From a virus, in the IMG/VR virus record IMGVR_UViG_3300028920_000034, positions 62,001 to 126,000 of that record: 64,000 nucleotides of DNA; one strand, written 5' to 3'. The position numbers were made by a program, and so were the translations under genes. Below are positions 40,766 through 57,955 of this stretch, in pieces. A model generated the notes under the pieces. The model was not told the origin of the DNA. It saw only the letters and a list, made by a program, of their open reading frames with translations, and did not search any database. Numbering within the stretch: position 1 is the stretch's first letter; every line of letters begins with the position of its first letter.

Positions 40766-41200
40766 CTACGGTCCGCTCACCCGGACAATCACCGCTCTCT
40801 CGCCAGTATTGGCTCCACCCATGACTCGAATCCCGGACGGGAACGTGTAGTATCGCCCAGCGGCGGGACCATTCGCTCCACCGTCGCCGCCCATCTTCTT
40901 GAGCATCTTGTCCAAGGGCTCCCATACCATGTTGGCCATCGCCACCAGGTTGTCAGGGGCGTTGGGGATGCTTTTGTAGCCGATGTTGAACACCCGGCTG
41001 TCCCCCCGCTTGAGAGCTCGAAGGCGCTTGATCCCCTGCTTCTTGAGCTGGGCTTTGATCTTGTCTGCCATGCTGATGATCTCAGCCACTTGCTCCTCGC
41101 TCGCAGCTTCACCCATGGCGCCAGTGGCACCAATGGCAGGAAAGTCCACCAGGCCCTGGTGCCCTCGCTCCTCCCGGAGCAATGCGTCTAGCCGATCCAT
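40766..41200 (-). CDS. Unknown protein with possible N-terminal targeting helix
   Basis: 144 residues. The N-terminus DRLDALLREERGHQGL is similar to the leucine/arginine helix of the 42-58 kb proteins, and M-G-E|A follows at 29-32. The body has EEQVAEIISMADKIKAQLKKQG and a beta end (YYTFPSGIRVMGG). AAGGAGG precedes the ATG. It may belong to the processed internal head protein set, with lower confidence. Confidence 0.5.
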   Translation of the reverse strand: MDRLDALLREERGHQGLVDFPAIGATGAMGEAASEEQVAEIISMADKIKAQLKKQGIKRLRALKRGDSRVFNIGYKSIPNAPDNLVAMANMVWEPLDKMLKKMGGDGGANGPAAGRYYTFPSGIRVMGGANTGERAVIVRVSGP

Positions 41201-41265
41201 CGTTGCCTCCTTGTTCGCCGGCACGATGGCCGGGGCTTGCTTGAATTCGCGCCCCTATCCTAGCA

Positions 41266-41529
41266 CTACCGGGCGCTCGCATTCCAGTGCTCACCGAGCT
41301 GCTGTAGCCGGAGCTCCAGGAGCTCGCTCTGGCGGAGTCGCTGGCACGCCACCCACACGTGCGCCCAGAACCCCACCGACAACACCATCCCGCACGCGCA
41401 CACGGCCGCAGCGATGTTGTCCATGATGGTGCGGTCCATGATCCCGAACAGCACCGTCCCCAACAGGAACAGCGCGCCGAACACCAGGAACACCCACCCG
41501 ATCATCTTCGGTTTCCGATCTTGTTTCAT
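41266..41529 (-). CDS. Small protein with two membrane helices, first gene after repeat D
   Basis: 87 residues. Two hydrophobic helices (about 9-30, IGWVFLVFGALFLLGTVLFG, and 38-60, AAVCACGMVLSVGFWAHVWV) and a charged C-terminus. ATG at 41529 has GGAGATTGGAG upstream; an earlier in-frame start lacks a site. It is the first gene of the repeat D transcript. Holin is possible from topology, not shown. Confidence 0.55.
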   Translation of the reverse strand: MKQDRKPKMIGWVFLVFGALFLLGTVLFGIMDRTIMDNIAAAVCACGMVLSVGFWAHVWVACQRLRQSELLELRLQQLGEHWNASAR

Positions 41530-41568
41530 GGCTCCAATCTCCCCGGGCCACCACGGCCCGCAAATCAA

Positions 41569-41637
41569 ACCCTCAAGACTCTTCTCCTCTAACAGAGAGA
41601 GATAAGGTTAAGTAAGAAGAAGCAACAGCCGTGCCAA
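41569..41637 (-). promoter_or_regulatory. Intergenic repeat D: sigma-54-like promoter upstream of membrane protein and head genes
   Basis: On the minus strand TTGGCACG (41637-41630), four bases, then TTGC (41625-41622), all matching. The leader has TTACTTAACC in place of TTAATTAACC, and a hairpin CTCTCTGTTAGAGGAG with different bases but retained pairing. It points towards the gene at 41529 and further to portal and capsid genes. Confidence 0.62.
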
Positions 41638-41646
41638 GTTGAGGTG

Positions 41647-41910
41647 CTACTTGCGGCGCTGGGCATCGAAGGCCGCACGGGTGGCCTCCACCATCGCCCT
41701 GGTGGCACCGTTGATGTGCTCCCACACGCCGTCCAGCGTGGCCTCGGAGAGCTGGCCTCGCTCGAGCTGGGTTGCGAGCTGGGTGGCCTGGGCCCCAAGG
41801 GCGCGGAGGGCCGAGACGGCACTCTCGCGGTCCTCGCCGGCCGCCGGCCGGACAGTGGGCACGTCCGCCCGCATCCGAACCTCCTCTTTCAACTGTGCCG
41901 CGTAGCTCAT
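41647..41910 (-). CDS. Small helical protein
   Basis: 87 residues, helical and Ala/Arg-rich (ESAVSALRALGAQATQLATQLERGQ, HINGATRAMVEATRAAFDAQRR). GAGG precedes the ATG. It is the only gene between the sigma-70-like promoter at 41970 and repeat D. No family is recognised. Confidence 0.5.
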   Translation of the reverse strand: MSYAAQLKEEVRMRADVPTVRPAAGEDRESAVSALRALGAQATQLATQLERGQLSEATLDGVWEHINGATRAMVEATRAAFDAQRRK

Positions 41911-41969
41911 GGTACACCTCGTCGGGCCGCTTTCGCTTGCTTGCCCTTAACTACCCTTATCGTGCCCGA

Positions 41970-41997
41970 AATATGGAGGGGATACAAGCCCTGTCAA
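41970..41997 (-). promoter_or_regulatory. Possible sigma-70 promoter inside an inverted repeat
   Basis: TTGACA (41997-41992), 16 bases, then CATATT (41975-41970). The -35 box is the centre of the perfect inverted repeat AAGCCC-TTGACA-GGGCTT (41986-42003), which could also be a terminator stem for the gene ending at 42014. The weak -10 makes the call moderate. Confidence 0.4.
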
Positions 41998-42013
41998 GGG
42001 CTTAGACGAAAAG

Positions 42014-44245
42014 CTACCTGGTGATGTACTGCGCGTTCACGGTCGCGCGCTGCGTCACCTTGGCCGGATCGCCATCCTTGGAGTGGTTCCAGTTTCCGAT
42101 CTGGAGGTACACGCGCGCCTGGTGACCCACCTTGTGGGTGGGGAGCTTGGGCTGCCGTTTCTCGTAGATGATGCTCTGCATCCCGAGCATCTTCCTGGGC
42201 CCCTCGTCCACGGACCAGCCGTGCGAACTCGCCCAGCCCTGGATGGCTCGCTTGAGCTCCCAGAGCTCCTTGCTCGAAAGCGGCTTCTTGCGCGTGCTCA
42301 GGGCGCTACTCATCTGGGTGTACTGATGTGGTGAGCCCTGATACTCCACCTTGCTGGTGAACTTCGGGCGCTTGATCCCAAGGGGCCGGAGCAATGGCCA
42401 CAGGGCCGCCAGGTCCTTGGGCACGGTGTCACCCTTGATCAGCTTGGGGCGCGCCGCCTCGTCCAGGTCCTCGAGCCCAGCGTCCTGGCGGAGCTCACCC
42501 AGGAGCCCACCGAGGTTGTCCTCGTCCTCCACGGACACGACGTTGCGGTTGCCGCCGGTGGCGATCTCCTCCTTGAACAGATCGGTGAGGGGGCGCCAAT
42601 CGTACTTCCGGTCCCCCTTCCACACCTTCCGCATGTCCACCATGGTCTCGTCCAGCATCTTGGGCTTGACGTTGGCGTTCTTGTGCTCGGTGTAGGTGGA
42701 CACGCTGAATTCGGTCATCCTGGGCGGAATTCGCACGATCATGGTGTGCTTCCCCAGCTTGGACTTCGTGACCCACCGCCCGGACACGGTGCCACCGGTG
42801 CCCTTGTCCCCGGTGAACCCCTTGACGCTGCCACCGATGGCCTTGCGGACCGCCTGGTCCAGCATCTTGATGATCATCATCTTGGCCTGGTGAAGCTGCT
42901 CGGGGCTGGCTGCCTCCCCGAGCTCCTGGTCCTCGAGCTCCATCCGCCCGCGCCCGCGCCCGGTCCCGTGCGGACCCTTGCCGTCCTGGACGCCGCTGCC
43001 CCGAGGTTTTCGACCACACTTGCCCTTGGCCTCCTCGAGCTCACCGAGGAGCTCACCGAGGGAGTCCTGACCCTCGTTCGCGGCGAACGGGCTACGCTTG
43101 TTGCCCGTGCCCAGCACGTACCAGCTCCCGGTGTTCGGGTCCTCGAAGTAACCCTTTTCCCCGCTCAGACCGTGGCCACCGTGGAACACGAGTCCCTGGC
43201 GCTCGGCCCACTTTTTCAGGTAGCCCTCGGAGCCGCGCTTCACCAGCACATAGCCTTGCGAGCTTCCCCGGTCAGGCGCCTTGTAGAGGCCCGCGTGCTT
43301 TTTCATGATGCCCTCGTCCAGCTCCCGCCCCTCGGGGAACAGCCCGGGCTGGCTGCCGGAGGGCATCTTGCTCGCCTTGCGGCGCCGCTTGTCGCGCATC
43401 TTCACGCGCTGCGAGGGCTCGTAGTAGTCCTTGCTGGTGAAGTAGCGATTGAAGATCTCATCCGCCATCATCCGGCCGGAAATCCGCAGCATGATCCCGT
43501 AGAACACCAGAGCCGCGTTGTCCGGGACAGCCCGAAGGTAGCTGCCCATCTTCGGGTGAACCTTGCTGGCGTTCCGAAGGAACATCTGAAATGCCTTGCG
43601 GGGAGCCCTGGCGATCACGTCCTGGGCATCGGGGATGTTGTCCGCGCCGAAAATGGCCGGGAGCTCCTCACGCGGCGCCGCTTCGATGGCGTCTCGAGTC
43701 TTCTTGAATAGGAGCATCTCAGGCCCGTGGCCGCCCTCGTCCTTCATCATTTTCAGCAATGGCGCGTCCACCTTGAACGAGCCAAGGCGACTGCGTTTCC
43801 CGCCGCTGCCCGTGGCCGCCCGCTTCTGGCGCTCGTTCAGGAGCCCAGCGTGGAACAGGATGTTGTCCGACTCCTCGAGCACCACCCCCATGAGGGCGCC
43901 CATCCGTTGCTCGTCCGTGCTCTCCCAGAGGTGCTTTCCCCACTTGCGCTGAATGTCCATTGCCACCTTTCGGGGCGTGAGCCCCTTGGAGCGCCACTTG
44001 AATCCGTGGTGTCCCTCTTCCGTTTCGCTATCGACCCAGGACTCCACGCTCAGGGCCCCTCCGCTGCGAATCGGCATGATGTAGATCACGCCGAAGGGCA
44101 CGTTCACCCCGATGGTGTCCGAGCCTTTGGTCCGGGAGTAGCTGGGGTTGGCGCCCACGGTTCCGTTGAGAATTCCGGCCACCTCGCCCCACCACTTCAT
44201 GAACCCCGTCTTGTCTTCGCGAGCAATCTTGTCCAGCGTTTTCAT
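42014..44245 (-). CDS. Multi-domain internal head protein candidate with three or more predicted protease sites
   Basis: 743 residues. Two linker helices of the LGELLGELxE type stand at about 396-405 and 579-590. L-E-E|A (403-406), L-G-E|A (442-445) and L-D-E|A (594-597) are candidate prohead protease sites, with L-D-E|G near 309-312 also possible. The protein would thus be cut into several pieces: an N-terminal alpha/beta part, a glycine/basic linker region, a beta-rich middle part and a C-terminal domain of about 147 residues. I recognise no enzymatic motif in any piece. It directly follows the zinc-ribbon gene. Confidence 0.62.
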   Translation of the reverse strand: MKTLDKIAREDKTGFMKWWGEVAGILNGTVGANPSYSRTKGSDTIGVNVPFGVIYIMPIRSGGALSVESWVDSETEEGHHGFKWRSKGLTPRKVAMDIQRKWGKHLWESTDEQRMGALMGVVLEESDNILFHAGLLNERQKRAATGSGGKRSRLGSFKVDAPLLKMMKDEGGHGPEMLLFKKTRDAIEAAPREELPAIFGADNIPDAQDVIARAPRKAFQMFLRNASKVHPKMGSYLRAVPDNAALVFYGIMLRISGRMMADEIFNRYFTSKDYYEPSQRVKMRDKRRRKASKMPSGSQPGLFPEGRELDEGIMKKHAGLYKAPDRGSSQGYVLVKRGSEGYLKKWAERQGLVFHGGHGLSGEKGYFEDPNTGSWYVLGTGNKRSPFAANEGQDSLGELLGELEEAKGKCGRKPRGSGVQDGKGPHGTGRGRGRMELEDQELGEAASPEQLHQAKMMIIKMLDQAVRKAIGGSVKGFTGDKGTGGTVSGRWVTKSKLGKHTMIVRIPPRMTEFSVSTYTEHKNANVKPKMLDETMVDMRKVWKGDRKYDWRPLTDLFKEEIATGGNRNVVSVEDEDNLGGLLGELRQDAGLEDLDEAARPKLIKGDTVPKDLAALWPLLRPLGIKRPKFTSKVEYQGSPHQYTQMSSALSTRKKPLSSKELWELKRAIQGWASSHGWSVDEGPRKMLGMQSIIYEKRQPKLPTHKVGHQARVYLQIGNWNHSKDGDPAKVTQRATVNAQYITR

Positions 44246-44249
44246 CCTG

Positions 44250-45149
44250 TCACCTCTTGCGCGTCGTCACGGACAGCTTGGCCACGCCGAACTGGACGTT
44301 GGGCACCTGGGCCGTGATGGTGAAGTAGCCCGGCACGGTCACCAGGAGGGTGTCCTCCTCGTCCGCCAGGGCCGGCTGTTCGATGTACTTGCCGCCCAGT
44401 TTCGGGGCGAGCTTGCGGAGGGCGCTCCGGAGGTTCGCCCACTGGTCTCCCTTGGCCTCGCGATAGACCGGTTTGTACCAGGCCCGCTTCACCCAGTGGG
44501 GAGCCTTCGTGTTGCGGCGCCAGCCTTTGTCCTTGAGCCACTGGTCCAAGATCGGCATGAGCTCCCACGGGTCACGCCGCTGGGCATTGGCCTCGAGGAT
44601 CAGATTACCGAGCTCGCGGACTGCCTGGAGGATGTGCTCCACCTGGGCGAACCGGGTATGCCTGGCCAGAAAACACTTCTCGCACTGGTAGTCCGTCTTG
44701 CGCTTCACGCCGCCGCACGTGGGGCACCTGGTCCGCTTCTTGACTTTGCGCTCCCCGCTGCCCAGGTCCACAGGGATGCTTTGCTGGTGGAGCTTGGCGC
44801 ACCGTGGACACCACTTCGTGCCCTTGCCGGCCGTCTTGGCCAGCTTTCGCTTGCAGTCGATACAGCGCCCCAGGAGCTCACCCGTGTGGGCCTCCTTGCG
44901 CGTGGGGGGCAACCTGAAGTCGGCCAGCTTCTGGCGACGTGTCGCCGGCTCTGGCGGGGGCTCGAGGGGCTCCGGGTCCGCCTGAGCCGGCGCCTGGCGA
45001 GGTGGCCTCCGGGGGTTGGGCACACGTCGCACGCGCGTGCGGGCTCTCGTGGCCCGCTTGCGCTCGGCCGCCCCGGAGAAGTCCAGGCCGATCTGGCTCA
45101 CCTGGGCCCTGAGCTCCATCAGGAGCTCCTGGATCGCCTCAAGGTTCAT
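44250..45149 (-). CDS. Double zinc-ribbon protein with N-terminal targeting-like helix
   Basis: 299 residues. The N-terminus EAIQELLMELRAQVSQIGLD resembles the shared helix. An Arg/Pro linker (30-75) precedes two zinc sites: GRCIDCKRKL with KWCPRCAKL, and RCPTCGGVKRK with YQCEKCFLA. A helical part and a beta-rich end follow. Nucleic-acid binding is likely. If packaged, it could act on host DNA or RNA after injection; this is inference. Confidence 0.55.
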   Translation of the reverse strand: MNLEAIQELLMELRAQVSQIGLDFSGAAERKRATRARTRVRRVPNPRRPPRQAPAQADPEPLEPPPEPATRRQKLADFRLPPTRKEAHTGELLGRCIDCKRKLAKTAGKGTKWCPRCAKLHQQSIPVDLGSGERKVKKRTRCPTCGGVKRKTDYQCEKCFLARHTRFAQVEHILQAVRELGNLILEANAQRRDPWELMPILDQWLKDKGWRRNTKAPHWVKRAWYKPVYREAKGDQWANLRSALRKLAPKLGGKYIEQPALADEEDTLLVTVPGYFTITAQVPNVQFGVAKLSVTTRKR

Positions 45150-45151
45150 CC

Positions 45152-45811
45152 CTACCACCCCGGCGCCGGGCGCGCCTCGCGCGGCTTGAGCTTCACCTGG
45201 CCGTGAAGGAGCTGCATCCCGTATTCGGTCCAGAACTCCTTGGGGTTGTAGAACGAATCGATCTCCTGCCCCTGCTTCGCCAGGAGCACGAAGGGGAGGC
45301 GCTGGCTCTGGACTGCCTCGCTTCTGCGCCCGAGGCTCCACCCGTTGGGCAGGAGCACCGTGGTCTGCGGGTACATCTTGAGGGTGGCCAGCGTCTTGCG
45401 GAACACCTCCTGGGCGTCCAGCCCCTCGAGCTCATCCCAGCGCCCCGCCGTGGGGCCCTGGTAGAAGTAGCTGTAGGACTTCCCAGCGCGGCGGATCTTG
45501 ACCACCGATCTCTGATCGGCAAGGCGAGGGCGCGCCTCCATCAGCCCGGACTCCTCGCGGAGCTGCCCGAGGAGCTCACCGAGAGCGTCCCCCTCGAGCA
45601 TTTCGATGTTGCCCATCTTGCGGGGGCTGCCCTTCGGCTCTCCGCTCTCCAGGTCCAGCTCGAGGTAGTAGAGGTTGCCACCCTTGCCGGGCTTCTTGAG
45701 GCTCACCACGTAGGACTTGGCATCCGCTCCCGCGGTCACCACCTCCCACTCCTGGCCGTCCACTTCGATGGTCTCGTAGGGAACGGGGAGCATGTACTGG
45801 GTTGGGGCCAT
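45152..45811 (-). CDS. Two-domain protein with central targeting helix and L-M-E|A site
   Basis: 219 residues. A beta-rich domain (1-70) includes VVTAGADAKSYVVSLKK. The helix GDALGELLGQLREESGL (74-90) and L-M-E|A (90-93) lead to a second domain (97-219) with strands and a helix (DAQEVFRKTLATLKMYPQ). The organisation equals that of the three genes upstream at 46457, 47379 and 48084. I recognise neither domain. Confidence 0.58.
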   Translation of the reverse strand: MAPTQYMLPVPYETIEVDGQEWEVVTAGADAKSYVVSLKKPGKGGNLYYLELDLESGEPKGSPRKMGNIEMLEGDALGELLGQLREESGLMEARPRLADQRSVVKIRRAGKSYSYFYQGPTAGRWDELEGLDAQEVFRKTLATLKMYPQTTVLLPNGWSLGRRSEAVQSQRLPFVLLAKQGQEIDSFYNPKEFWTEYGMQLLHGQVKLKPREARPAPGW

Positions 45812-45820
45812 GGGGTCCTC

Positions 45821-46444
45821 CTACCGCTTCTCGCGGGTGGCGCTGAGTACCTTGAACGCCTTGTCCTTGCGGAGGCGTTTCAGCTCCAGGCCGGTGACGC
45901 TGGTGATCTCGTAGACGGTGCCGTGCTTCGGGTCCTCGCGGGAGCCCACGTTGCCGTACTCCTCCGCGCGATACCAGGGGTCCGTCTCCCTGGTCATCTT
46001 GCCGGTGGGCGGATTCACCGCCTTCACCTCCACACGCCACCGCACGTAGTCCTCCTCTTTCTCCTGGGGCTGCTTCTTGCCGGCGAGGAGGGCCTTGAGC
46101 TTGCGAGCGCGCTCGGGGTGGTACTTCTGATAGCCGGACTTGAGCCAGGTCTCGGTGCCCTGGCGGATCAGGTCATCCGCGATAGGGCGCTGAATGCGCT
46201 GCTCCTTGCCCATCGAATAGAGCTGTTTGTAGGTCACCGCATCGTCCGTCACCCGGGTCACGAAGATGCCACTGGGCGAGCTCGAGGCGCCCATGAAATA
46301 CACCTGGTTCGGGAAGATGGTCATCCCGCCGAGCTTGCGGAGACCGCCGGACCCGATGGCGTACATGGTCTCGTCCAGGGGCTCGTCCGAGCCGCCGCGG
46401 ATCTGCTCGAGTAGCCGGGCCAGCTTCTGGGTTCTGATGCTCAT
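45821..46444 (-). CDS. Internal head protein candidate with N-terminal targeting helix
   Basis: 207 residues. IRTQKLARLLEQIRGGSDEP then L-D-E|T (23-26) form the shared signal. The remainder is alpha/beta with Lys/Arg-rich parts (ARKLKALLAGKKQPQEKEED) and a final TGLELKRLRKDKAFKVLS. No family is recognised. The 25-residue leader would be removed by the prohead protease if the reading is right. Confidence 0.58.
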   Translation of the reverse strand: MSIRTQKLARLLEQIRGGSDEPLDETMYAIGSGGLRKLGGMTIFPNQVYFMGASSSPSGIFVTRVTDDAVTYKQLYSMGKEQRIQRPIADDLIRQGTETWLKSGYQKYHPERARKLKALLAGKKQPQEKEEDYVRWRVEVKAVNPPTGKMTRETDPWYRAEEYGNVGSREDPKHGTVYEITSVTGLELKRLRKDKAFKVLSATREKR

Positions 46445-46456
46445 CGTGTTCTCCTG

Positions 46457-47368
46457 CTACTTGACCGCCAGGTCACCCTTGGCGATGTGAATGGTGGCCA
46501 CCTTGGTGAGCCCCATGAACTTCAGTGCGCGCTTGGCCCCGGAGGCGTCCGGGGCCGTCATCACCAGGTGGAAGTCCGCCTGGCGGGGCTCCTGCATCCC
46601 GGGGAGCTGCACCTGCTTCAGGCGCACCGCCTGGCCGATGGCCTCGAGGGCCGGCCGCCGCATCTCTGCCCCCTCGTCCAACAGGAGCACCCCCTGGTTG
46701 GCCATGGTGAGCTCGCCTTCCACGTAGCGGCCGTTCCGCACCGTCCCGATCAGGCCCTTCATGCTCACCGTGTAGTGCGGGGCGCGAAGGGGCCCCTTCA
46801 CCATCTCCGCGATGCGCCTGGCGATCATGATCCTCCCGGACCCTGGCTGGCCGGTCAGGATGATCGGAATGTCCTGCATGATGGCCTTCAAGATCTGGTC
46901 CACCACCTTTTTCCGGACCGTCAGGTCCCGGAACTGGGTCATCCCGGGCCGGCTCGCGCGGGCCTCGGTGAGCGGCTCCGGTTCGCTGGCTCGCGGCGCG
47001 CGGATGGTCTCCAGGAGGGTGCCCAGCTTGGCCGCCCTGGTCTCCTCCACCGGGCCCAGCTCGCTCAGGTACAGATACCCTGTACCGTCACCGGACTCGA
47101 CCACGCACGCGGCTCCGCCGTCCGGGAGCTCGAAGCATGTCCGGCCGCTTTTGCTCACGGACTCCTCGAGCCCGAGCAATCCAAGGGCATGGGCAAAGCC
47201 TTTGCAGTCCTTGCTCTCGGTGAACGCGATCCACGCCGCTCCCGCCGGGGGGTCCGGCACTCCCAACGCATGGTCCCCATGCTTCGTGTAGGCCACGCTG
47301 TAGCCGCTGCGTTGCATCCGCCGGCTGATGGCCAGCATGGTCTTTCTGTACGGATGGCTGCGTCTCAT
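46457..47368 (-). CDS. ComM / Mg-chelatase-like AAA+ ATPase with removable N-terminal domain
   Basis: 303 residues; ATG at 47368 follows AAAGGAAG. The N-domain (1-115) resembles that of the gene at 48084. A linker helix KLGTLLETIRAPR and L-T-E|A (133-136) precede the ATPase. This has Walker A TGQPGSGR (172-179), then PLRAPHYTVSMKGLIG and GELTMANQGVLLLDE (Walker B, 218-232) and MRRPALEAIGQAV. These match ComM/YifB and ChlI, in which RxPHHxxSxxxLxG and GExSLAHxGVLFLDE are conserved. The C-terminus is short, so lid and sensor parts may be missing. ComM drives branch migration of DNA. Confidence 0.7.
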   Translation of the reverse strand: MRRSHPYRKTMLAISRRMQRSGYSVAYTKHGDHALGVPDPPAGAAWIAFTESKDCKGFAHALGLLGLEESVSKSGRTCFELPDGGAACVVESGDGTGYLYLSELGPVEETRAAKLGTLLETIRAPRASEPEPLTEARASRPGMTQFRDLTVRKKVVDQILKAIMQDIPIILTGQPGSGRIMIARRIAEMVKGPLRAPHYTVSMKGLIGTVRNGRYVEGELTMANQGVLLLDEGAEMRRPALEAIGQAVRLKQVQLPGMQEPRQADFHLVMTAPDASGAKRALKFMGLTKVATIHIAKGDLAVK

Positions 47369-47378: not shown

Positions 47379-48074
47379 TTACGCCGGCTTGTACTTGATC
47401 TCCACGGTGTCTCCCAGAATGCCTCGGAAGCCACTCCGGCTCGGGTCTCCGCGCCAATACTCGCGCCCCTTCAGGTAGCCCCATGTCGGATAGGGCTTCC
47501 TTCCTCGCGTGTTGTAGAGCTCGAAATGCTGATCTGCCTTTGATTTCGCCGGAAGGGGAACCTGTGCCCCCTTGAGCACACGTTCTTTTCGGACCACCTT
47601 GCGCTTGCGCTTGTCATACACCTCGTAATACTCGCGCACCGTCACCTTTGCGAGGGCCCACTTGCCAGGATCGGCTGGAACTGGCGACGGCTTGGCCGCT
47701 GGTTTACGTTTCACTCGGGGCGGGGGCGCCCACGCGGGGAGATCTCCGCCAGGCCCATCGAAACCCATGGCCCACTTGGGCACCTCGTCCTCGCCCAGTG
47801 CCTCTTCGCGGAGCTCACCGAGGAGCTCGCCCAGGGAGTCATGGTCCTCCTTGATCCCCTTGAGCACCCATGCCATGGCGTCTTCCTTGGTTTTGAAGCC
47901 GCTGGCCTTCACGTCACGGTTGCGGTAGTTGCGGACCAGCACGTCGCCGCGGGCCGCGCCCCACCCGGCTGCCATCGTTTTCCAGACGGAACCGAGAACC
48001 TTGTTCCCGCGCATGACTTCGTAGCTGTTGCCCTCATCGTTGTACTTTGGTGGAACCAATCTCGCCTTGGCCAT
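47379..48074 (-). CDS. Two-domain protein with central targeting helix and L-G-E site
   Basis: 231 residues. The N-domain (1-75) has YEVMRGNKVLGSVWKTM and KTKEDAMAWVLKGI, an alpha/beta fold. DSLGELLGELREEALGE|D (79-96) forms the linker helix with a cleavage-like site. The C-domain (100-231) is basic with WALAKVTVREYYEVYDKRKR and ends in strands. I recognise neither half. It is the second of four neighbouring genes with this organisation. Confidence 0.57.
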   Translation of the reverse strand: MAKARLVPPKYNDEGNSYEVMRGNKVLGSVWKTMAAGWGAARGDVLVRNYRNRDVKASGFKTKEDAMAWVLKGIKEDHDSLGELLGELREEALGEDEVPKWAMGFDGPGGDLPAWAPPPRVKRKPAAKPSPVPADPGKWALAKVTVREYYEVYDKRKRKVVRKERVLKGAQVPLPAKSKADQHFELYNTRGRKPYPTWGYLKGREYWRGDPSRSGFRGILGDTVEIKYKPA

Positions 48075-48083: not shown

Positions 48084-49448
48084 CTACTTCGTGAGTCCGC
48101 TGATGGTGAGCCATTTCGCCTCGCCGTCCTTGCCGGCGTAGAAGCCCACCAGAGTCACTCGGCCGCTCCCGGTGGACTTGTACTCCTCGTTCACGGCGAG
48201 GCGCCACCCGAGGTACTTCGATCCGGATGGTGCGTACTTCTGCACCATGGCCTTGGCATGGCGTCCAATCTGCACCGGGTCGATAAGCGGAAGCCCTTGC
48301 ATGTTGCTCGGAATCTTCGCCTCACCCAGGAACTCGCCTTCCAGCTCAGTGGCCTCGTACTGCATGGCCCGCTTCACCTGGAGAGGCTTCACCCACGCCG
48401 GGTGGCCGTCCAGGTCCCCGTAGGGGTTGAAACAGACCAGGTAGTGGCCTCTGTCCATGCTCCCCCGGATCAGCTTGAGGAGCGCCGCGGAGCCACCGGG
48501 GGCGATCAGCCGAACCAGGTCGCGCGGAAGGGGCCCCTGGGCGTCACCCTTGGTGGGGTACACGCGCACCACCTTGAACTGTTGGCCGTCCGCCTCGAAG
48601 GGCTGCCCGGGGCGCGGAAGGGGCGCCCGCTCCTCGAGGTACTCTCCTCCCAGCTCAAAGTCCTCCCTCACATTGGACTTGGGCTTCTTTCCGTCCTTGA
48701 GGGCCTGAACGATCTGGCGCGCAATCACCCTGGCACTGTTCCAGTGCGGATCCTTCACACCGTACAGCTTGGCCAGGTACTGCATTTCAGGCACCGTCAG
48801 GTTGGCCGCCTCCATCTTGCGCTGGAGGATGACAGCGAACGCATCGAAGCCGTACTGGTCACCCGGATACTCGCCGTCCAGGTGCCCCTTGCCCATCCGC
48901 TTGTGATAGGCGTAGAACTCCTTGGCCATCTTGTGCAGGTCCGCACCCGTGGCCTCCTCGAGACTGTCCTCGCTGCGAAGCTCACCGAGAAGTCTCTTGA
49001 GCTTCCCAGCCATCGCATCGCCCTCCAGTTGGCTGGGCGCGATCTCGCTCAGGAACACGTACCCGGTAAACGTGGCCATCGGCTTGAACGCTCCACGGAA
49101 CGGATCCAACACCACGTAGGCGTAGACACCCTTGCCAGGGCCGATGAACTCTTCGCGCTCCACGCCGTTGATGTTCCCGCTTCCCTCGTGTCGCCACCCA
49201 CCGCCGCGCTGCATGGCCGTGGAAAGCAAGGAGCGGAACTCATCGTACTGAGCTGGACCACCGGGAATCGGATAGCCCATGCCGTCCTTTTCCCGGTTGG
49301 TGTACTCGAAGGTGAGCCACTTGGTACCCTCTGGCGGATTCGGAATGCGGAACTGGCGCACTCCGCCGGACCGCCCTTTCACCTTGAAGCCATGCTTCTT
49401 GAGCGAAGATCCGATGGCGGAGATCAGCTTTGGGTAATGCTTGCTCAT
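48084..49448 (-). CDS. Two-domain protein with central targeting helix and L-E-E|A site
   Basis: 454 residues. The N-domain (1-145) shares a pattern with the ComM-like protein: GFKVKGRSGGVRQFRIPNPP then GTKWLTFEY and FTGYVFLSEIAP. KLKRLLGELRSEDSLEE|A (149-166) is the linker. The C-domain starts with a helix (MAKEFYAYHKRMG), has NVREDFELGGEYLEERAPLP near 245, and holds a beta-rich end. No enzyme motif is visible. Confidence 0.58.
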   Translation of the reverse strand: MSKHYPKLISAIGSSLKKHGFKVKGRSGGVRQFRIPNPPEGTKWLTFEYTNREKDGMGYPIPGGPAQYDEFRSLLSTAMQRGGGWRHEGSGNINGVEREEFIGPGKGVYAYVVLDPFRGAFKPMATFTGYVFLSEIAPSQLEGDAMAGKLKRLLGELRSEDSLEEATGADLHKMAKEFYAYHKRMGKGHLDGEYPGDQYGFDAFAVILQRKMEAANLTVPEMQYLAKLYGVKDPHWNSARVIARQIVQALKDGKKPKSNVREDFELGGEYLEERAPLPRPGQPFEADGQQFKVVRVYPTKGDAQGPLPRDLVRLIAPGGSAALLKLIRGSMDRGHYLVCFNPYGDLDGHPAWVKPLQVKRAMQYEATELEGEFLGEAKIPSNMQGLPLIDPVQIGRHAKAMVQKYAPSGSKYLGWRLAVNEEYKSTGSGRVTLVGFYAGKDGEAKWLTISGLTK

Positions 49449-51095: not shown

Positions 51096-51689
51096 CTACT
51101 CGGGGCGCGCGCACGCGGCAACGGCCGGGGTGGCCCAGGGGTTGTTGTGCTTCGGATAGAGCACCACCCTGGCGAGCTCGGCCTTGAACAGCTTGAGGTT
51201 CGGAGCCGTCACCACGATGCGTCCCCACTGGACCGTCGCCCGGAAGTTGCACACGCACGGGCACGCGGGAGTAGGCGTGCGAAGCCCACAGCACTCGTCC
51301 TTGATCTGGAGTCCCTTGGCTCGGCAGAGCTCGCACCTGGCGAGTGAGGGGACGAGCTGCTCCCCGGAGCACTTGGACACGTACCAGTCCGGGGGCACCA
51401 TGACGGCGAAGCTCCGGCGACGAATCTCCTTGATCTCCCCGGCCGCCACCAGGCACGCCTCGAGGTGGTCCACCAGGGTGTCCACCCGGGCCCGGAACGC
51501 ATCGGTGTCCTGGTCCGCGGGGGTCCAGATGGGTGTGCCCTTGGGCGTGGCGCGCCACTTGTCGCACTGGGGCATCTTGTAGCTGGTGGGGCTGGACAGG
51601 AAGGCGCTGTAGGGCTTGACCAGCTTGGGGCAGCCGCACGCCGCCAGGGCCACCGCGGCCCCGGCCAGGAGCATGGTGAGGCGCCTCAT
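51096..51689 (-). CDS. Predicted lipoprotein, cysteine-rich
   Basis: 197 residues. The signal sequence RLTMLLAGAAVALAACGC has a lipobox L-A-A-C. The mature part contains many cysteines (KCSGEQL, RCELCRAKG, ECCGLRTPTPACPCVCNFR), suggesting disulfides in the periplasm. Its ATG overlaps the preceding lipoprotein stop. Role unknown; envelope modification, exclusion or lysis are options. Confidence 0.6.
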   Translation of the reverse strand: MRRLTMLLAGAAVALAACGCPKLVKPYSAFLSSPTSYKMPQCDKWRATPKGTPIWTPADQDTDAFRARVDTLVDHLEACLVAAGEIKEIRRRSFAVMVPPDWYVSKCSGEQLVPSLARCELCRAKGLQIKDECCGLRTPTPACPCVCNFRATVQWGRIVVTAPNLKLFKAELARVVLYPKHNNPWATPAVAACARPE

Positions 51690-52159
51690 CGGAACACGGT
51701 GTTGCAGTCGGGCACCAGCTCGGTGGGCCTTGAGGCCGAGACGTTGTGCTGGATCTTGACTTCCTTGGAGCTCCCCGGCTGGACGGTCACCCCCTTTCGG
51801 GAGTTGGTGGAAGCCGTGTAGTCCGAGCTCACGGTGGTGTCCCCGTCCGTGTGGCTGCCGCCATCGAACTTCAGGTGGCACGTCACGTCCCCGGTGACGG
51901 CCTTGGCCGTGGGGTTGTGGAGCCAGACGGTCACGGTCACGAAGTAGGTGCAGCCGGTGTTGTCGCACTGGCCGGGCAAGATCCACAGTTTCTTGACCAC
52001 GGTTTGGTGGGGTCCTGCCTGGGCTGGGTCCCCGCGGTAAGGCTTGTCCTTGGATTCCTGGGTTCCTCCGAACACGTCACACCGCTTGCAGCCGCCGCCG
52101 GTGAGGAGCCAAGCGATGGCCAGGAGCACCACCAGGATAAGGGTCAGGGTCCGGTTCAT
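51686..52159 (-). CDS. Predicted lipoprotein or membrane-anchored protein
   Basis: 157 residues. TLTLILVVLLAIAWLLTGGGCKRC is a hydrophobic signal ending in a weak lipobox (G-G-G-C). The mature part is an immunoglobulin-like beta domain (YFVTVTVWLHNPTAKAVTGD, VTCHLKFDGGSHTDGD). AGGTGAATC stands before the ATG. It is coupled to the next lipoprotein. Confidence 0.55.
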   Translation of the reverse strand: MNRTLTLILVVLLAIAWLLTGGGCKRCDVFGGTQESKDKPYRGDPAQAGPHQTVVKKLWILPGQCDNTGCTYFVTVTVWLHNPTAKAVTGDVTCHLKFDGGSHTDGDTTVSSDYTASTNSRKGVTVQPGSSKEVKIQHNVSASRPTELVPDCNTVFR

Positions 52160-52340: not shown

Positions 52341-53375
52341 TCATGCGCGCTTGGCCAAGAGGGCCTCGAGGGCCCGCTTCTTGGCCTTGAGCTTGCGCTC
52401 GAGCTCCTCCGCCTCGCGCCCGGCCGCGCGGTCCCGGTAGCTCATGCCACGCTCTGCCAGCCGCCGCTCACGCCAGTCGTGCGTCACTCCGAACCCGGAG
52501 TCCTTGCGGGCCTCCGCTTCCGTCTTGCGCCTCGAGTACACGAAGGCGTCCCCGCAGCTCACCTTGAAGTTGGTGCCGTACTTCCCACCCGAGGGCCCCA
52601 CCTCTACCGGCGGGGGCTGCATCTTCTGGATCTGCTTCCAGATGGTGCTGTACTTCTTGGCCCGGTCCTTGAGGGCCGCGAGCTTGCGCTCCCACTTGGC
52701 GATGGTCTTCGCCGCGCTGGCGCCGGCCTTGGCTGTTGGCAGCAATGAGCTGCCCTTCATGCAGTTCGTCCCCACCACAGCCGTCCGCTTGTCTGCGAGC
52801 TGGACGGTGGCATGGACTTCGTGGGGGCGCCCGCACCTGGCGCACCAGCTCTCGGTGCCCGAGCCCTTGATCGGCACCCAGCGGTCATCGATCTCCTCAT
52901 AGTCCCGGGTGTCCACCACGTCCAAGATCTTGACGATGGTGTCCGGGTCCAGGCCGCCCTTCCAGCGCGTGCGCCGCTGGCGCGGGGGCTTGCGCTTGCT
53001 CGTCTTGGCAGCGAAGTCCAGTACGATCTGGCTCGCTTCGCCCAGGAGCTCCTTGGCGCCCGGGGCGAGCTCAATGGCGATGCTTTGAACGTGTGCCATG
53101 TACCCTGGTTCCCGTGGCACGCGATAGCCGTCCGCGGTCCTGAGAACGGCCAGGCCCTTGTCCACCAGAGACTTGCAGGCGTTGTAGTCCCGGCCGCCCC
53201 CACGTGTTCCGTGTGCAGACCGTGGCCCATGATAGGACCATGCCTCCGCCGTGTAGTAGCCTCTGGATGGATCCAGGAGCTGCTTCAAGATCTTCTGTTC
53301 CGTCTTGTTGAGCCTGGAGCGCCGTGGTCGCGCTTCCGCCAGAAGTTGCGCGAGCTCCTCGAGTAGTTGCTTCAT
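52341..53375 (-). CDS. Winged-helix and zinc protein with N-terminal targeting signal
   Basis: 344 residues. KQLLEELAQLLAE|ARPR gives the shared signal with L-A-E|A at 12-15. NKTEQKILKQLLDPSRGYYTAEAW and RDYNACKSLVDKGLAVLRTADGYRV (about 24-90) look like a winged helix. WCARCGRPHEVHATV and GTNCMKGS (about 178-210) look like a zinc site. Lys-rich helices close the protein. The DNA-binding prediction is from pattern only. Confidence 0.57.
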   Translation of the reverse strand: MKQLLEELAQLLAEARPRRSRLNKTEQKILKQLLDPSRGYYTAEAWSYHGPRSAHGTRGGGRDYNACKSLVDKGLAVLRTADGYRVPREPGYMAHVQSIAIELAPGAKELLGEASQIVLDFAAKTSKRKPPRQRRTRWKGGLDPDTIVKILDVVDTRDYEEIDDRWVPIKGSGTESWCARCGRPHEVHATVQLADKRTAVVGTNCMKGSSLLPTAKAGASAAKTIAKWERKLAALKDRAKKYSTIWKQIQKMQPPPVEVGPSGGKYGTNFKVSCGDAFVYSRRKTEAEARKDSGFGVTHDWRERRLAERGMSYRDRAAGREAEELERKLKAKKRALEALLAKRA

Positions 53376-53378
53376 GGC

Positions 53379-54608
53379 TCAGTCCCTGTTGAGCACCTTG
53401 GACACCAGGCGCTCGTATTCCACGCCTTGCCCGACATGATGCTGATCGTCGTCCTCGAATTCAGCGAACGGATCGTGCCCCGCTTGCTCGAGATAGTAGC
53501 TCACGTACTCGCGCTTGGCCGCGCCAGCGGGGACCGTCTTGAGCCAGTTGACGAACAGCTCTCCGCCGTAGGCCATCTTCGTGGCACGCTTGGACGCCTT
53601 GGCGCCCTTGGTGGCGAGCTGCTTCACGGCCGTGAGGTAGGCCACGGTCCACATCTGCCCGGCCTTGCGTTGCTTGCTCTCGTCCCACCCGAGGCTGTCC
53701 AGGATGTTGGCCAGCGAATTGGTCTCACCCATGTCGCAGTTGATCGACGGGCGCCGCTTCCACTGCTCCCAGCCTTCCAGGATGCCACCTCCGAACGCCT
53801 CGGATGCCTCCTTGGACCGCTGATCGATCTGCGCCCTGGCCACCACAGCCATCGCCTCGCGGATTTCTCCCACGATGCGCTCGAGCACCTGGAGCCCCTC
53901 CTTGTAGAGCTCCTTGTACTTGCCTTGCCCGCGCATCTCGTGAGGCATCTTCTGGGCGAGTACCCGGTCCTGGGCCGGGGAGAGCTCGCGGCCGGTCTGG
54001 AGCTGGGCCACCAGGGACTGAAGGAAGTCGTCGTCCTGGTAGGTGGGGATGGCTTGGATCTTGGAGATCATCGGAGCGTTCTTCTGGGCCCTGGCCTCCT
54101 GGGCCTTCCGCTCACCGTGGGCATCGTACAGGGTAGGCGCATCACCGTCGCGCTCGAAGGTGGTCTGCTCCACCCCGATCACTTCGCCGCCGTGATGCGA
54201 GTCCGCCTCCTTGCCCCGGCCAGCGCGCACCTTGAGCTTGGCCCGAGCCACCACTCCTCCGCCGTCCACCACGAAAGCGAAACCGTAGTAGCGGACCTTG
54301 CTGGCCGTCCGTGTGCCGAAACCTTGAATCCGGTCGGTCACCATGACGGCCATGTCGTTCGGGCCCTTGAGGTACGGCCGGGCCCACTGCTTCACCAGTG
54401 GGTTCGCCTTGAACCACCTGTCCTGGAGCTTGCGGTAGAGGAACTTCGCCTGGGCCGGAGACTTGAACTTGCCCCCGTTGTACTTGGCCAGGGAGTTGAG
54501 GGACTTCATCATGTCCTGTGGGTCGGGCCCACCGAGCCCCTCCACCAGCTCTGCGAGCTCCTCGAGGAGCATTAACGGGTATCGCTGTTTGTAGGTGGCC
54601 TTGTTCAT
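53379..54608 (-). CDS. Internal head protein candidate
   Basis: 409 residues; ATG at 54608. PLMLLEELAELVE|GLGG (11-27) is a version of the shared signal with L-V-E|G. The body has a beta-rich domain with ASKVRYYGFAFVVDGGGVVARAKL, helices (ELYKEGLQVLERIVGEIREAM) and a Lys-rich section near 330. No enzymatic motif is recognisable. Confidence 0.55.
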   Translation of the reverse strand: MNKATYKQRYPLMLLEELAELVEGLGGPDPQDMMKSLNSLAKYNGGKFKSPAQAKFLYRKLQDRWFKANPLVKQWARPYLKGPNDMAVMVTDRIQGFGTRTASKVRYYGFAFVVDGGGVVARAKLKVRAGRGKEADSHHGGEVIGVEQTTFERDGDAPTLYDAHGERKAQEARAQKNAPMISKIQAIPTYQDDDFLQSLVAQLQTGRELSPAQDRVLAQKMPHEMRGQGKYKELYKEGLQVLERIVGEIREAMAVVARAQIDQRSKEASEAFGGGILEGWEQWKRRPSINCDMGETNSLANILDSLGWDESKQRKAGQMWTVAYLTAVKQLATKGAKASKRATKMAYGGELFVNWLKTVPAGAAKREYVSYYLEQAGHDPFAEFEDDDQHHVGQGVEYERLVSKVLNRD

Positions 54609-54609
54609 G

Positions 54610-56253
54610 CTACTCGCTGTCCTCGAGGGCCATCGCTGCCGCGGATGGCCGGCTTTGGAGCTTACGCACCAGGTCCTTGAGGAGCCCTTTCGCGCGCCAT
54701 GCGCCCGCGCGGGCCTTGCCCACCAGCTCGGCTGCGTCCCGGGCATCGATCATTGCCGCCCGCGGGGGCGGGGGGTCCATGCGTCCGAGTAGGTCCGCGA
54801 GGGAGTCCGCGCCACGCAGGTCCACCTGGGCGTCCATGGCTGCCCGGGCGATGTACTCGAGGGGGTTGGCCTTGATCTGGTGAGCCGCGCCGCTCGGGAG
54901 GTGCAGCTTGACGGCCTCGAGGAGCCCCCCGAGGGTGTCCGTGGACTCCTGGGCGCGGAGCTTCTTGAGGTGGGCCTCCATGGATCGGATGGTCTGCTCG
55001 AGCTTGCCCTTGAGCTTGCGCTCATCACGGGAGAGCTCCCCGGCCATCCTGGCGATGGTCCGGTATTCGGCCTTGATCGAAGCGAGCTCCGCCTCGAGCC
55101 GGTCAGCGACCGTGGCCTTGGCCTCCCCGAACATGCCGGTCTGAATCGGGTCCGGACGCCGCTTCTCGGAGCCGCCGGCCCCGGGGCTGATGGTGACCGT
55201 CATGGAATCGTAGATTGCCTGGTGGGCGATCTCCACCTGGGCATTGCCCTTGCGGTAGATCCACCTGTTGCGATGTTCCCAGCCGCCCGGCTTGAACCCC
55301 GCCTCGGTGAACCCCTTGCGCTGGAGCCATTCGATGATGGCCTTCCGGCACTCATGGGGGCGCCCCACGTCGTCCTTGGACAGCACCATGCCTTGGCCGC
55401 CCTTGCCCGGCTCCACCTTGAACCGGCCGTACCGCTTGATCGCCTTGGCCAGCGCCATGGCGAACGCCACGTCCGGATCCACCAGGGGCCGGCTTTCCCC
55501 GAATAGTGCTCCCTGGCCGGTGAACTCGCGCCGGGCCGGCTTGTGCGCGCTGGGGCCTTCGGGCCCGCGTAGCTGGATGTTCCGAGAGTAGATGATCCGA
55601 ATCCCCTTGAACGGGGTGGACGATTCGATGCTCACCTCGTCCCGGTCCCGCTTGTAGATCTGCCGGTAGGGCTTGCCCCACTCGAAATCGTCCGGCTTGC
55701 CGGTCGTCTTGGCGAGCTTGAAGCCCTGACCCAGGAGGAACCGCTTGAGCTTGCGGCGCACCTCCTCGCCCTTGTTGCCCACGTCGTCGCACTTGAGGGC
55801 GTAGCTCATCGGGCCAGCAGTGTCCTGGTACTTCCAGGAGCCGGTGCCTTTGAGCTTCTCCTTGAGCTTCTCCCCGAAGTCGGCGCCCTTGGACTCCTCG
55901 AGCTCGATGCCCTCCCCGAGGCGCCGCCGGGCCTGGACAGCCACCTCGAGGGGTAGCGCGGACAGGTAGCCCTCCCGCCAGTCCTTGTTGTCGGACTTCT
56001 GGGGCACCTGGACGGCGAGCTTGGCTCCGCCTCGCCGCATGTCCACCCGGGCCGTGGCCGCGCCGGCCTTGAACGCCTTGCTCAAGGTGTTCACGCCCGT
56101 CTTGGACTTGAGCTGGGCGAGCTTGGTTTGCAGGGCCGCCACGTTGCTCGCGTCCCGATGTAGGTCTCCGAACCGGCGCTTCTTGCGCCCTTCATCGAGC
56201 TCCATGCCGGCCGCTTCGCGGATACCCTGTAGCAGATTGTCCAGATGGTTCAT
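54610..56253 (-). CDS. Large internal head protein candidate
   Basis: 547 residues; ATG at 56253 overlaps the upstream stop. NHLDNLLQGIREAAGMELDE|G (2-22) is a clear signal. Residues 91-113 hold the DWREGYLSALP motif shared with the gene at 50779. The middle has two similar beta-alpha blocks of about 100 residues, each with a K-R-F or I-x-WLQRKGF helix and a strand (EVSIESSTPFKGIRIIY; VEIAHQAIYDSMTVTI). The end is a coiled coil and an Ala-rich part. No family is recognised. Confidence 0.58.
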   Translation of the reverse strand: MNHLDNLLQGIREAAGMELDEGRKKRRFGDLHRDASNVAALQTKLAQLKSKTGVNTLSKAFKAGAATARVDMRRGGAKLAVQVPQKSDNKDWREGYLSALPLEVAVQARRRLGEGIELEESKGADFGEKLKEKLKGTGSWKYQDTAGPMSYALKCDDVGNKGEEVRRKLKRFLLGQGFKLAKTTGKPDDFEWGKPYRQIYKRDRDEVSIESSTPFKGIRIIYSRNIQLRGPEGPSAHKPARREFTGQGALFGESRPLVDPDVAFAMALAKAIKRYGRFKVEPGKGGQGMVLSKDDVGRPHECRKAIIEWLQRKGFTEAGFKPGGWEHRNRWIYRKGNAQVEIAHQAIYDSMTVTISPGAGGSEKRRPDPIQTGMFGEAKATVADRLEAELASIKAEYRTIARMAGELSRDERKLKGKLEQTIRSMEAHLKKLRAQESTDTLGGLLEAVKLHLPSGAAHQIKANPLEYIARAAMDAQVDLRGADSLADLLGRMDPPPPRAAMIDARDAAELVGKARAGAWRAKGLLKDLVRKLQSRPSAAAMALEDSE

Positions 56254-56561
56254 GGTGTGCGTTCTTCCTTGGCTGCCGCCGCCTGGACTTCCTTGGCCTT
56301 GGCTTCGATCCCCTTGGCGAGGGCGATCACCGCCTTCAGGTCTCGGCCTTTGACGGCCTTGACGAGCTTCAGGAGCTTGCCGTGGATCTCGCCAGTGCAG
56401 TTGGCGATCTCTGGCCACTGGTCCTTGCGTGGCTTGGGGTCGAGCCGTCCCGCCGGGGCGCTTCCACGGTGGCGTCCGGCGAGAATATCGTCAGCGCCCC
56501 ACCGGGTCTCGTCCACTGGCTCGAGCCCGGCCGCTTGGCGAATCTCCTCGGTGATGCTCAT
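56250..56561 (-). CDS. Small internal head protein candidate
   Basis: 103 residues. SITEEIRQAAGLEPVDE|T (2-19) matches the shared signal, with V-D-E in the cleavage position. The remaining 84 residues are Lys/Ala-rich and helical (KLLKLVKAVKGRDLKAVI), similar in size to T4 internal proteins. Its ATG follows CACTAGGAGCACC-like spacing. Function unknown. Confidence 0.55.
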   Translation of the reverse strand: MSITEEIRQAAGLEPVDETRWGADDILAGRHRGSAPAGRLDPKPRKDQWPEIANCTGEIHGKLLKLVKAVKGRDLKAVIALAKGIEAKAKEVQAAAAKEERTP

Positions 56562-56568
56562 GGTGCTC

Positions 56569-57429
56569 CTACTTCGCGGCGAGGATCTTCGCGCCAGCGA
56601 GATTCACCACATCGAACTCGGAGCCATAGCCGGTGTCCCGCCCGCGGTAGACCTTCACGTGCAGTGGCTTGGGCGAATAGATGTTCAAGCGGTCCTCGAA
56701 GTCCTGTCCATCGGTGGCCATGCGGATGGCAGCCTTGAGGCGCTTGAGCCCCTTGATCGTGCCGCCAGAGCCCTGGACCATGCCGGTGTACTTCTTGCCG
56801 TTGGCAGTCTGAATCGTGAACGTGAGACCGTCCTTGTTGTGACTGGCCATCGCCTCGGTGAGCCCGGCCGCTTGGCGCACATCTTCCACCAGGTCCGCGG
56901 AGAACTCGGTGTCCTCATGCCGAGCTCGCTCCACCTTCCTGACGCCCTCATAGGCTGCCTTGGTGGCCGCCACCGAGGCTTCGATGGCCTCTTTCAGCTT
57001 GTAGGGGATGCCCTCTTTTCGGCTGTCGATGCCCTCCATGCCAGCCACCACCTGGTTGGCATAGTGGGCTGCCAGCTTCGCGTTTGCCCCAACGGTGCCC
57101 CGCTTCGGATTGTAGGGGGAGCGAACCTCGTCCAGCTCGGTGTCCTCCGTGTGGCCCTTGAGGGCCCACTGGAGAGCTGTCACCAGGTTGTCCACGTTGG
57201 CACCCTTGGCTTGCTCCCGCTTGGCGAACACCCAAACGCTGTTGAGCTTCTTGGCTGGCACGTTGTTCTTGAGCCAGTTGGCGAGCTTTTTGATGTGGGT
57301 GTTGCTCCACCTGGCAGGGTTGGTTTTGATCCCCGCGTTGCTGGCGAAGCTGGAAACGATTTTGGTAAGGGCTGGGTCCACCGCTTCGCCCAGCCCGGCT
57401 TCGGCGCGGATGCTTTCGATGATGTTCAC
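56569..57429 (-). CDS. Internal head protein candidate
   Basis: 286 residues starting with GTG at 57429, where AGGAG lies 5-10 bases upstream. NIIESIRAEAGLGE|AVD (2-18) is the shared signal with L-G-E|A. Helical segments (IVSSFASNAGI, HIKKLANWLKNNVPAKKL) and a C-terminal beta-rich domain (GLTFTIQTANGKKYTGM, PLHVKVYRGRD) follow. A second L-x-E|A (AAGLTEA, near residue 180) could release the C-terminal domain. No family is recognised. Confidence 0.57.
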   Translation of the reverse strand: MNIIESIRAEAGLGEAVDPALTKIVSSFASNAGIKTNPARWSNTHIKKLANWLKNNVPAKKLNSVWVFAKREQAKGANVDNLVTALQWALKGHTEDTELDEVRSPYNPKRGTVGANAKLAAHYANQVVAGMEGIDSRKEGIPYKLKEAIEASVAATKAAYEGVRKVERARHEDTEFSADLVEDVRQAAGLTEAMASHNKDGLTFTIQTANGKKYTGMVQGSGGTIKGLKRLKAAIRMATDGQDFEDRLNIYSPKPLHVKVYRGRDTGYGSEFDVVNLAGAKILAAK

Positions 57430-57439
57430 GATGGAGCTC

Positions 57440-57955
57440 CTACTTCTCGACGGTGAGGCCCTTTTCCGCCAGGTAGGCGAGAATGGCCTTGGTGAACATG
57501 GCACGGATGCGCTGGCTCATGGGTTTTGACCAGTCGCCTTTTTTGGCCCAGCCGGTGCCGTAGGCTTTGATCAGCTTGCGCTTGACTGCGACTGCCGCAG
57601 CGGCGGAGAGCTGGTCCAGCTTGTTGTCACTGAGGATGAGGTTGTCATCCTGGGTGAGGCCCTCCTCGAGCTCGGTGTCCACGTCTTCGCGGGTGGTGGT
57701 GACGCTCATGGGCTTACCGCCCGCGAGCCCGGCGATCCGATTCACGTACATGGACACCTGGGAGACCCGGTTGAACACGTTGAGGGCCTGGCGCCGCTTC
57801 ACGAAGTCGCCCAGCGTGTTCACGTTGCGCGCGAGTCGGTGCATGGCCTGATCCACCTTGCGCCAGGTGCTCGCGTCCATTTCGGCTTCGGTGAGGTTCT
57901 CTTTGGGCTCGAGGCCCGCGTGGCTCCGGATCTCTTCGATCAGATTCTGGCTCAT
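57440..57955 (-). CDS. Internal head protein candidate
   Basis: 171 residues. SQNLIEEIRSHAGLEPKEN then L-T-E|A (21-24) is the clearest signal of the set. The body is helical (MHRLARNVNTLGDFVKRRQAL, KLDQLSAAAAVAVKRKLIKAY). AGGAGGAAG precedes the ATG. It is the first gene of the internal protein block in transcription order. No family is recognised. Confidence 0.58.
   Translation of the reverse strand: MSQNLIEEIRSHAGLEPKENLTEAEMDASTWRKVDQAMHRLARNVNTLGDFVKRRQALNVFNRVSQVSMYVNRIAGLAGGKPMSVTTTREDVDTELEEGLTQDDNLILSDNKLDQLSAAAAVAVKRKLIKAYGTGWAKKGDWSKPMSQRIRAMFTKAILAYLAEKGLTVEK

Follow-up and report, generated by a model that had tools for sequence, protein, structure and literature searches.

Why should some 17 neighbouring genes of one phage, lying close to its head genes, share a short helix and a site of the kind cut by a prohead protease? 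The cluster that raises this question (positions 40766-57955, ~17 kb) is part of a 64,000-nucleotide stretch (hereafter the window), which covers positions 62,001 to 126,000 of the IMG/VR record IMGVR_UViG_3300028920_000034 (153,114 bases in full, 64% GC). The record represents a large uncultured T4-like phage. Genes were called with a simple codon-usage script, not a standard annotator, and are designated here by their lower coordinate; all of them are located on the minus strand, and the cluster is transcribed immediately ahead of the portal gene (Table 1). We infer targeting, cutting, packaging and delivery to the host from the anatomy of the genes and from phage T4, and consider it probable that the cluster encodes cargo polyproteins, which are directed to the core of the prohead, processed by the prohead protease and packaged. 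According to this model, the late-gene cluster would encode modular polyproteins, and each chain would be steered to the prohead core, as it assembles, by a short amphipathic helix of acidic character (consensus L..LL.EIR...GL). The S77 prohead protease would then cut after [L/I/F/M]-x-E, which would remove the leaders and, at internal helix junctions, free the small domains on either side. Together, ~17 genes would supply about 35 domains of 70-390 amino acids (aa), most of them basic, which would remain in the head alongside the DNA and be passed on to the next host like T4 IPI and Alt. Since the junctions around all domains are of one type, recombination could add, drop or swap domains while targeting and release stay intact.

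An earlier note on this DNA had listed twelve L-x-E sites followed by a small residue, and a helix shared by the respective genes. All twelve sites are present in well-supported minus-strand open reading frames (ORFs), and the shared helix was borne out by a gapless motif derived from scratch (approximately L..LL.EIR...GL.E). In a leave-one-out analysis (p ≤ 0.05 against shuffles), this motif was retrieved in 13 of the 17 held-out cluster proteins, as compared to 1/17 and 0/17 proteins in two length-matched control sets from the same genome. This motif search, a kind of check that the note had proposed, indicates that the pattern is real and cluster-specific; an origin by chance or composition was ruled out by the shuffles and the matched controls. 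Per 1000 aa, strict L-x-E-[AG] sites numbered 4.4 in the cluster, compared with 1.2 after shuffling and 1.35 for the remaining genes. At 45 of 50 listed junction sites (25 pairs between this phage and a sister phage, see below), the residue following the predicted cut (P1') is A, G or S. N-terminal L-x-E[AGS] was found in 9 of 18 cluster proteins, 18 of 140 other proteins of the same phage, and 19 of 221 proteins of a distant relative (G002). The site alone is thus fairly common, and it is the combination of helix and site that is specific.

The note had also stated that the phage encodes a gp21-type protease and a capsid protein with an ISE/A site (the slash marks the predicted cut), and both were identified by Pfam. 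Hence, a Gp23-type major capsid protein (MCP) and an S77 (gp21-type) protease occur within one phage, as a T4-type system requires. The MCP propeptide ends in ISE/A at residue 66, and the same alignment column holds [LI]-x-E in six of six MCPs despite variable neighbouring positions. The S77 protease lineage therefore plausibly cuts there and uses [LI]-x-E.

A modular layout is visible in the genes. Only seven of the twelve listed sites are N-terminal, as leaders would be; the other five are internal (in 48084, 47379, 46457, 45152, and 42014 after aa 165, 95, 135, 92, and 596, respectively). About 10 of the 17 genes begin with a short N-terminal leader ending in [L/I]-x-E and a small residue, and the same five have internal sites only, with helix or site at residues 74-596. 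Several chains bear three to five sites; with those absent from the earlier list included, the totals are five in 54610, five in 42014, four in 48084, and three in 56569. L-x-E flanks the helix on both sides in 45152 (MLE/GDALGELLGQLREESGLME/A) and 48084 (QLE/GDAMAGKLKRLLGELRSEDSLEE/A), so these helices would be excised whole.

The strongest evidence comes from a sister phage (IMGVR_UViG_3300029258_001212; G001), whose MCP is 99% and whose head proteins are mostly 91-99% identical to those of the window phage. Cluster proteins were split at the sites into modules of at least 60 aa; the borders were drawn by reading the sites, and the module counts are thus estimates. Modules were exchanged in an all-or-none manner: of 35 window modules, 22 have a counterpart in the sister (51-97% identity) and 13 have none, and kept and missing modules are often adjacent in one ORF. 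The dN/dS ratios of retained modules (0.07-0.54) indicate purifying selection on them as proteins. Breakpoints of homology fell within 6 aa of [LIVMF]xE[AGS] in 13 of 22 cases in G001 coordinates (3.1 expected, p < 2e-4; DNA-level homology) and in 8 of 22 cases in window coordinates (2.5 expected, p = 0.0014). P2 differs in 10 of 25 junction pairs between the two phages, whereas the conservation of P1 and P3 is to some extent circular, L-x-E in both phages having been the criterion for choosing the sites, so that only the free positions P2 and P1' are informative.

Individual genes illustrate these exchanges. The leader of 50033 (aa1-51) is 98% identical in the sister and the entire cargo past ELDE/S is unrelated; likewise, 40766 has a leader (aa1-31) with 77% identity followed by unrelated cargo, and the sister counterpart of 56250 retains the leader helix with its cargo replaced. 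Within 54610, the sister has an additional 91-aa module exactly between two ELEE sites and lacks module 4, a coiled-coil-like segment of ~60 residues between MFGE and LLE. A 107-aa module sits behind the leader of 52341 in the sister and is absent from the window phage. The leader of 49458 is internal in the sister (G001_29458), behind an extra 88-aa N-terminal module, and the last module of 56569 is 94% identical in the sister, where it is located behind the leader of 57440. Only the module aa274-376 of 48084 is shared with the sister gene, and 47379 has no counterpart gene in G001.

The modules are basic, with a median isoelectric point (pI) of 9.8 compared to 5.7 in the remaining proteome (p = 6e-8); for whole cluster proteins, the values are 9.4 and 5.7 (p = 0.0016). 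Unlike the modules, the leaders are acidic. This combination is expected of proteins that lie among packed DNA once a core-binding leader has been lost. Pfam searches with the cluster proteins and PHROGs searches with eight of them gave nothing above the cut-off, including no similarity to ejection proteins in PHROGs, except for one AAA+ module, which was also the sole match (to ComM) in a solved-structure search with four proteins. This C-terminal module of 46457 is of the ComM/Mg-chelatase type. Its Walker A motif (GQPGSGRI) is without the usual lysine, so that the module may be catalytically dead, and Walker B looks intact; judging from these motifs, it is possibly an inactive decoy. PADLOC detected this module, one marginal BrxC match and nothing further. 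Among 50,697 phage records searched by tblastn, 46457 had weak matches in nine through its AAA+ part, and three full-length cargo proteins had none. 54610 was modelled with AlphaFold from no more than two sequences; the low-confidence model contains one alpha/beta fold in two copies, and all five sites lie around these in segments with a predicted local distance difference test (pLDDT) score <50. Modules 2 and 3 of this protein (aa121-377) are adjacent paralogues with ~32% identity. A fold search with the model yielded no significant match, and a weak resemblance to DcrB/PsbP-like structures.

The same leader occurs in a third species (G005; MCP 72% identical), in genes located between capsid and tail. 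The protein G005_10637 starts with MLKKLMEEMREQAGLSE, G005_10988 contains LMEEMQAEAGLTE, and LDKLLHEMREQAGLEE/A separates two domains of G005_9858. These leaders match a profile built from the window and sister phages only (p 0.0005 to 0.0015), and the helix is placed once N-terminally and once internally. Of three junction DNA patterns searched in IMG/VR, the first retrieved seven stretches with the sister contig as the only confirmed relative, the second, for EMREQAGL, retrieved only the G005 contig, where it was found twice, and the third retrieved nothing. An IMG/VR protein search revealed no cargo relatives beyond the sister contig. In G002 (MCP 51%), N-terminal L-x-E is at background level, which indicates that no large cluster is present there. 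A second leader-like stretch, DPLFxxVxxxITxxTxEGxYARxxLG, was observed in the first 43 residues of two G005 (L028) genes (7709-8401 and 8690-9073), followed by different cargo, and internally (aa143-171) in the window gene at 29241-30038.

Several observations weigh against cleavable cargo polyproteins. Four of the 17 cluster proteins failed the held-out motif test, and N-terminal L-x-E[AGS] also occurs in 13% of unrelated genes. Roughly nine breakpoints are off-site, most of them inside diverged domains or at gene starts. The first domain of 42014, 45152, 46457, 47379, and 48084 is not preceded by a leader; targeting of these proteins would have to act from an internal helix, which would be unexplained if targeting is strictly N-terminal and, to our knowledge, is not known for T4. 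Both structure models (54610 and 48084) are of low confidence, with mean pLDDT values of 58 and 48, and only two of the four sites of 48084 coincide with pLDDT minima. Finally, most of the putative G005 cargo is not basic.

The chains could instead be packaged yet left uncut, as multi-domain polyvalent proteins delivered whole, with the helices serving as docking elements or coiled-coil linkers. Such proteins, with 2-15 domains, are an established strategy of phages and also occur in conjugative elements (PMC5512222), and the leucine-rich helices of the cluster could also dock. Polyvalent proteins resemble the cluster in their multi-domain chains, which are predicted to be delivered together with the DNA, and in domain shuffling, and were likened to viral polyproteins by the authors of that work (PMC5512222); several distinct domains per chain and lineage-specific shuffling were indeed found in the cluster. 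Polyvalent proteins are, however, predicted to be released by embedded peptidases and carry known enzymatic domains, whereas the chains of the cluster would be cleaved at a consensus junction by the prohead protease, and their domains are mostly unnamed. No Pfam match to an embedded peptidase or to polyvalent-type enzymatic domains (Zn-peptidase, ParB-like nuclease, ART, Toprim, and others) was found in any cluster protein. Delivery of uncut chains also fits poorly with the presence, after each helix, of L-x-E with a mostly small P1' residue as at the MCP site, and with the many breakpoints located at the E and not at the start of the helix. We regard this alternative as unlikely.

It is quite unlikely that the proteins are components of the prohead core or scaffold that are chopped and expelled at maturation like T4 gp22, gp67, and gp68, and never delivered. 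Core proteins of T4 are cut at many sites and then exit the head (PMC9026906), and the head genes follow directly downstream of the cluster. In some relatives, protease C-termini and scaffold N-termini have a weak resemblance to the leader helix (p 0.01-0.04 in three of nine, none of them in the window phage); the idea that the leader is common to these termini was rejected. Assembly parts should be conserved, yet whole domains differ between phages with 99% identical MCPs; moreover, the cargo contains an AAA+ fold and a zinc-ribbon-like protein, and the cut sites are mostly between domains. An ordinary hypervariable operon, in which the linkers common to the genes act as hot spots of recombination without a role in targeting or cleavage, appears very unlikely. 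Five of the six internal DNA repeats in the cluster are linker helices, and some of these helices are common to different genes across the two phages, as such hot spots would be. This explanation leaves unaccounted for the match of L-x-E to the MCP site, the contrast of acidic leaders and basic cargo, and the same helix at N-termini in the third species.

Packaged and cleaved cargo has precedents, with which the cluster agrees in part. T4 internal proteins (IPs) are brought into the prohead core by a capsid targeting sequence (CTS) of 10-19 residues, which is removed by gp21 (PMC9026906). As read from T4 sequences, such leaders are MKTYQEFIAE/A and ...STITE/A. IPI, IPII, IPIII, and Alt share with about 10 of the 17 cluster genes the short N-terminal leader ending in [L/I]-x-E and a small residue, the T4 IPs and the cluster both have basic and fast-evolving cargo, and Gp23 and the S77 protease are encoded in the same phage. 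By eye, the cluster leader has little in common with MKTYQEFIAE beyond the site, and no similarity of the mature parts to T4 IPs or Alt was detected by Pfam, or by PHROGs with eight cluster proteins. T4 has four such proteins with one N-terminal CTS each (Alt is also C-terminally cut), whereas the cluster has ~17 genes, many of them with internal helix/site junctions and several modules per chain. The cluster follows the T4 format with unrelated mature parts, and its internal junctions and domain strings go beyond T4. The proposal of the earlier note, a T4-like set of targeted, cut, and packaged proteins, gains from the S77/Gp23 pair, the MCP site, the basic cargo and the exchange of cargo behind conserved leaders, but is incomplete, as the set consists largely of multi-module polyproteins joined at internal helix/site junctions and not simply of proteins with one leader each. 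In the phiKZ-like giant phage SPN3US (protease gp245), many internal head proteins are known (ejection proteins gp45-54), several are cut by the gp21-type protease after x-x-E, and long propeptides may be cut repeatedly (PMC10052503). Cleavage in SPN3US and phiKZ-like phages is at A-x-E or S/A-x-E (PMC10052503, PMC9026906), in contrast to L-x-E in the cluster, and the nine SPN3US substrates have mainly N-terminal propeptides, with no module exchange at sites described there (PMC10052503). An N-terminal signal within the first 30 residues also suffices for packaging of the P1 Dar antirestriction proteins (DarB CTS; PMC9024508), which resemble the cluster leaders in this respect but are without a common consensus leader or a cleavable module string. 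A full-text literature search, with most subscription journals outside its coverage, returned no further description of phage polyproteins cut by a prohead protease.

Table 1 Head genes and members of the cargo cluster in the window, with predicted leaders, sites, and modules (a slash marks the predicted cut).
Feature	Position	Strand	Details
Major capsid protein (Gp23)	31783..33282	-	Pfam Gp23 4.6e-69; ISE/A after residue 66
Prohead protease (Peptidase_S77), long scaffold-like C-terminal part	33344..34912	-	Pfam 5.6e-20
Portal	37184-38896	-	G003 relative matches T4 portal model
Cargo gene, 144 aa	40766..41200	-	Leader aa1-31 (MGE/A)
Cargo polyprotein, 743 aa	42014..44245	-	Sites after aa125, 311, 405, 444, 596; helix junctions aa390-405 (43031-43078), aa572-596 (42458-42532); six modules
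Probable member, 299 aa	44250..45149	-	N-terminal helix without L-x-E; basic; zinc-ribbon-like CxxC pairs
Cargo gene, 219 aa	45152..45811	-	Internal helix aa74-92 (45536-45592); MLE/G before, LME/A after
Cargo gene, 207 aa	45821..46444	-	Leader aa1-25 (PLDE/T)
Cargo gene, 303 aa	46457..47368	-	N-terminal module; internal helix aa110-135 (46964-47041, PLTE/A); ComM-like AAA+ module 46460-46963
Cargo gene, 231 aa	47379..48074	-	Internal helix aa75-95 (47790-47852, SLGELLGELREEALGE/D)
Cargo polyprotein, 454 aa	48084..49448	-	Internal helix aa143-165 (48954-49022) between QLE/G and LEE/A; sites YLEE/R aa273, FLGE/A aa376
Cargo gene, 188 aa	49458..50024	-	Leader aa1-33 (VLDE/A)
Cargo gene, 149 aa	50033..50482	-	Leader aa1-51, ends ELDE/S
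Doubtful member, 97 aa	50779..51072	-	LLGEPDE/A; module paralogous to 54610 module 1
Cargo gene, 344 aa	52341..53375	-	Leader aa1-14 (LLAE/A); further site LLGE/A aa113
Cargo gene, 409 aa	53379..54608	-	Leader aa1-23 (ELVE/G)
Cargo polyprotein, 547 aa	54610..56253	-	Leader aa1-21 (LDE/G); sites after aa120, 253, 377, 446; five modules
Cargo gene, 103 aa	56250..56561	-	Leader aa1-18 (PVDE/T)
Cargo gene, 286 aa	56569..57429	-	Leader aa1-15 (LGE/A); DTELDE/V aa101; internal helix junction aa172-192 (56854-56916, DLVEDVRQAAGLTE/A); three modules
Cargo gene, 171 aa	57440..57955	-	Leader aa1-23 (57887-57955, NLTE/A); second site DTELEE/G aa98; two modules

Three genes within the interval (41266, 51096, and 51686) are non-members, membrane- or lipoprotein-like and without helix or site. 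Lipoprotein-like genes in or beside the cluster (39447-40061, 51096-51674, and 51686-52159) have a hydrophobic start and a lipobox-like cysteine, no leader or site, and 93-100% identity in the sister. Candidate leaders with L-x-E were also seen between capsid and tail genes (20765-30398) in 21163, 26419, and 30129, and also in 24626, 25630, and 26857. Where a sister match exists, identity is mostly >90% throughout, without module exchange of the cluster type; 26419 is 47% identical. In the relative G003 (L025, IMGVR_UViG_3300042731_008775), the T4-type portal is in three pieces (12528-17168), and intein splicing domains were detected in three stretches. Its protease gene (7822-10518) is greatly enlarged (898 aa) and has no intein match.

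On balance, we lean towards regarding the cluster as a system of exchangeable cassettes, in which helix and protease site are interchangeable at N-termini and between domains, one protease frees ~35 proteins in the head, and cargo is swapped at the junctions. The rapid turnover of the cargo and the analogy with T4 IPI and Alt suggest a role in host takeover or anti-defence. If the cassette reading is true, a tailed phage would use a trans-processed viral polyprotein strategy on a far larger scale than the four T4 proteins which define the scheme, and this would provide a sequence rule for spotting injected phage proteins. It would also yield ~35 proteins, with hardly any relatives known, as candidates for early action (anti-defence or takeover), as well as natural junctions that could be used to engineer phages for the delivery of chosen proteins in the laboratory. 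The exchange of modules at cut sites suggests plug-in loading of many different proteins into the phage head.

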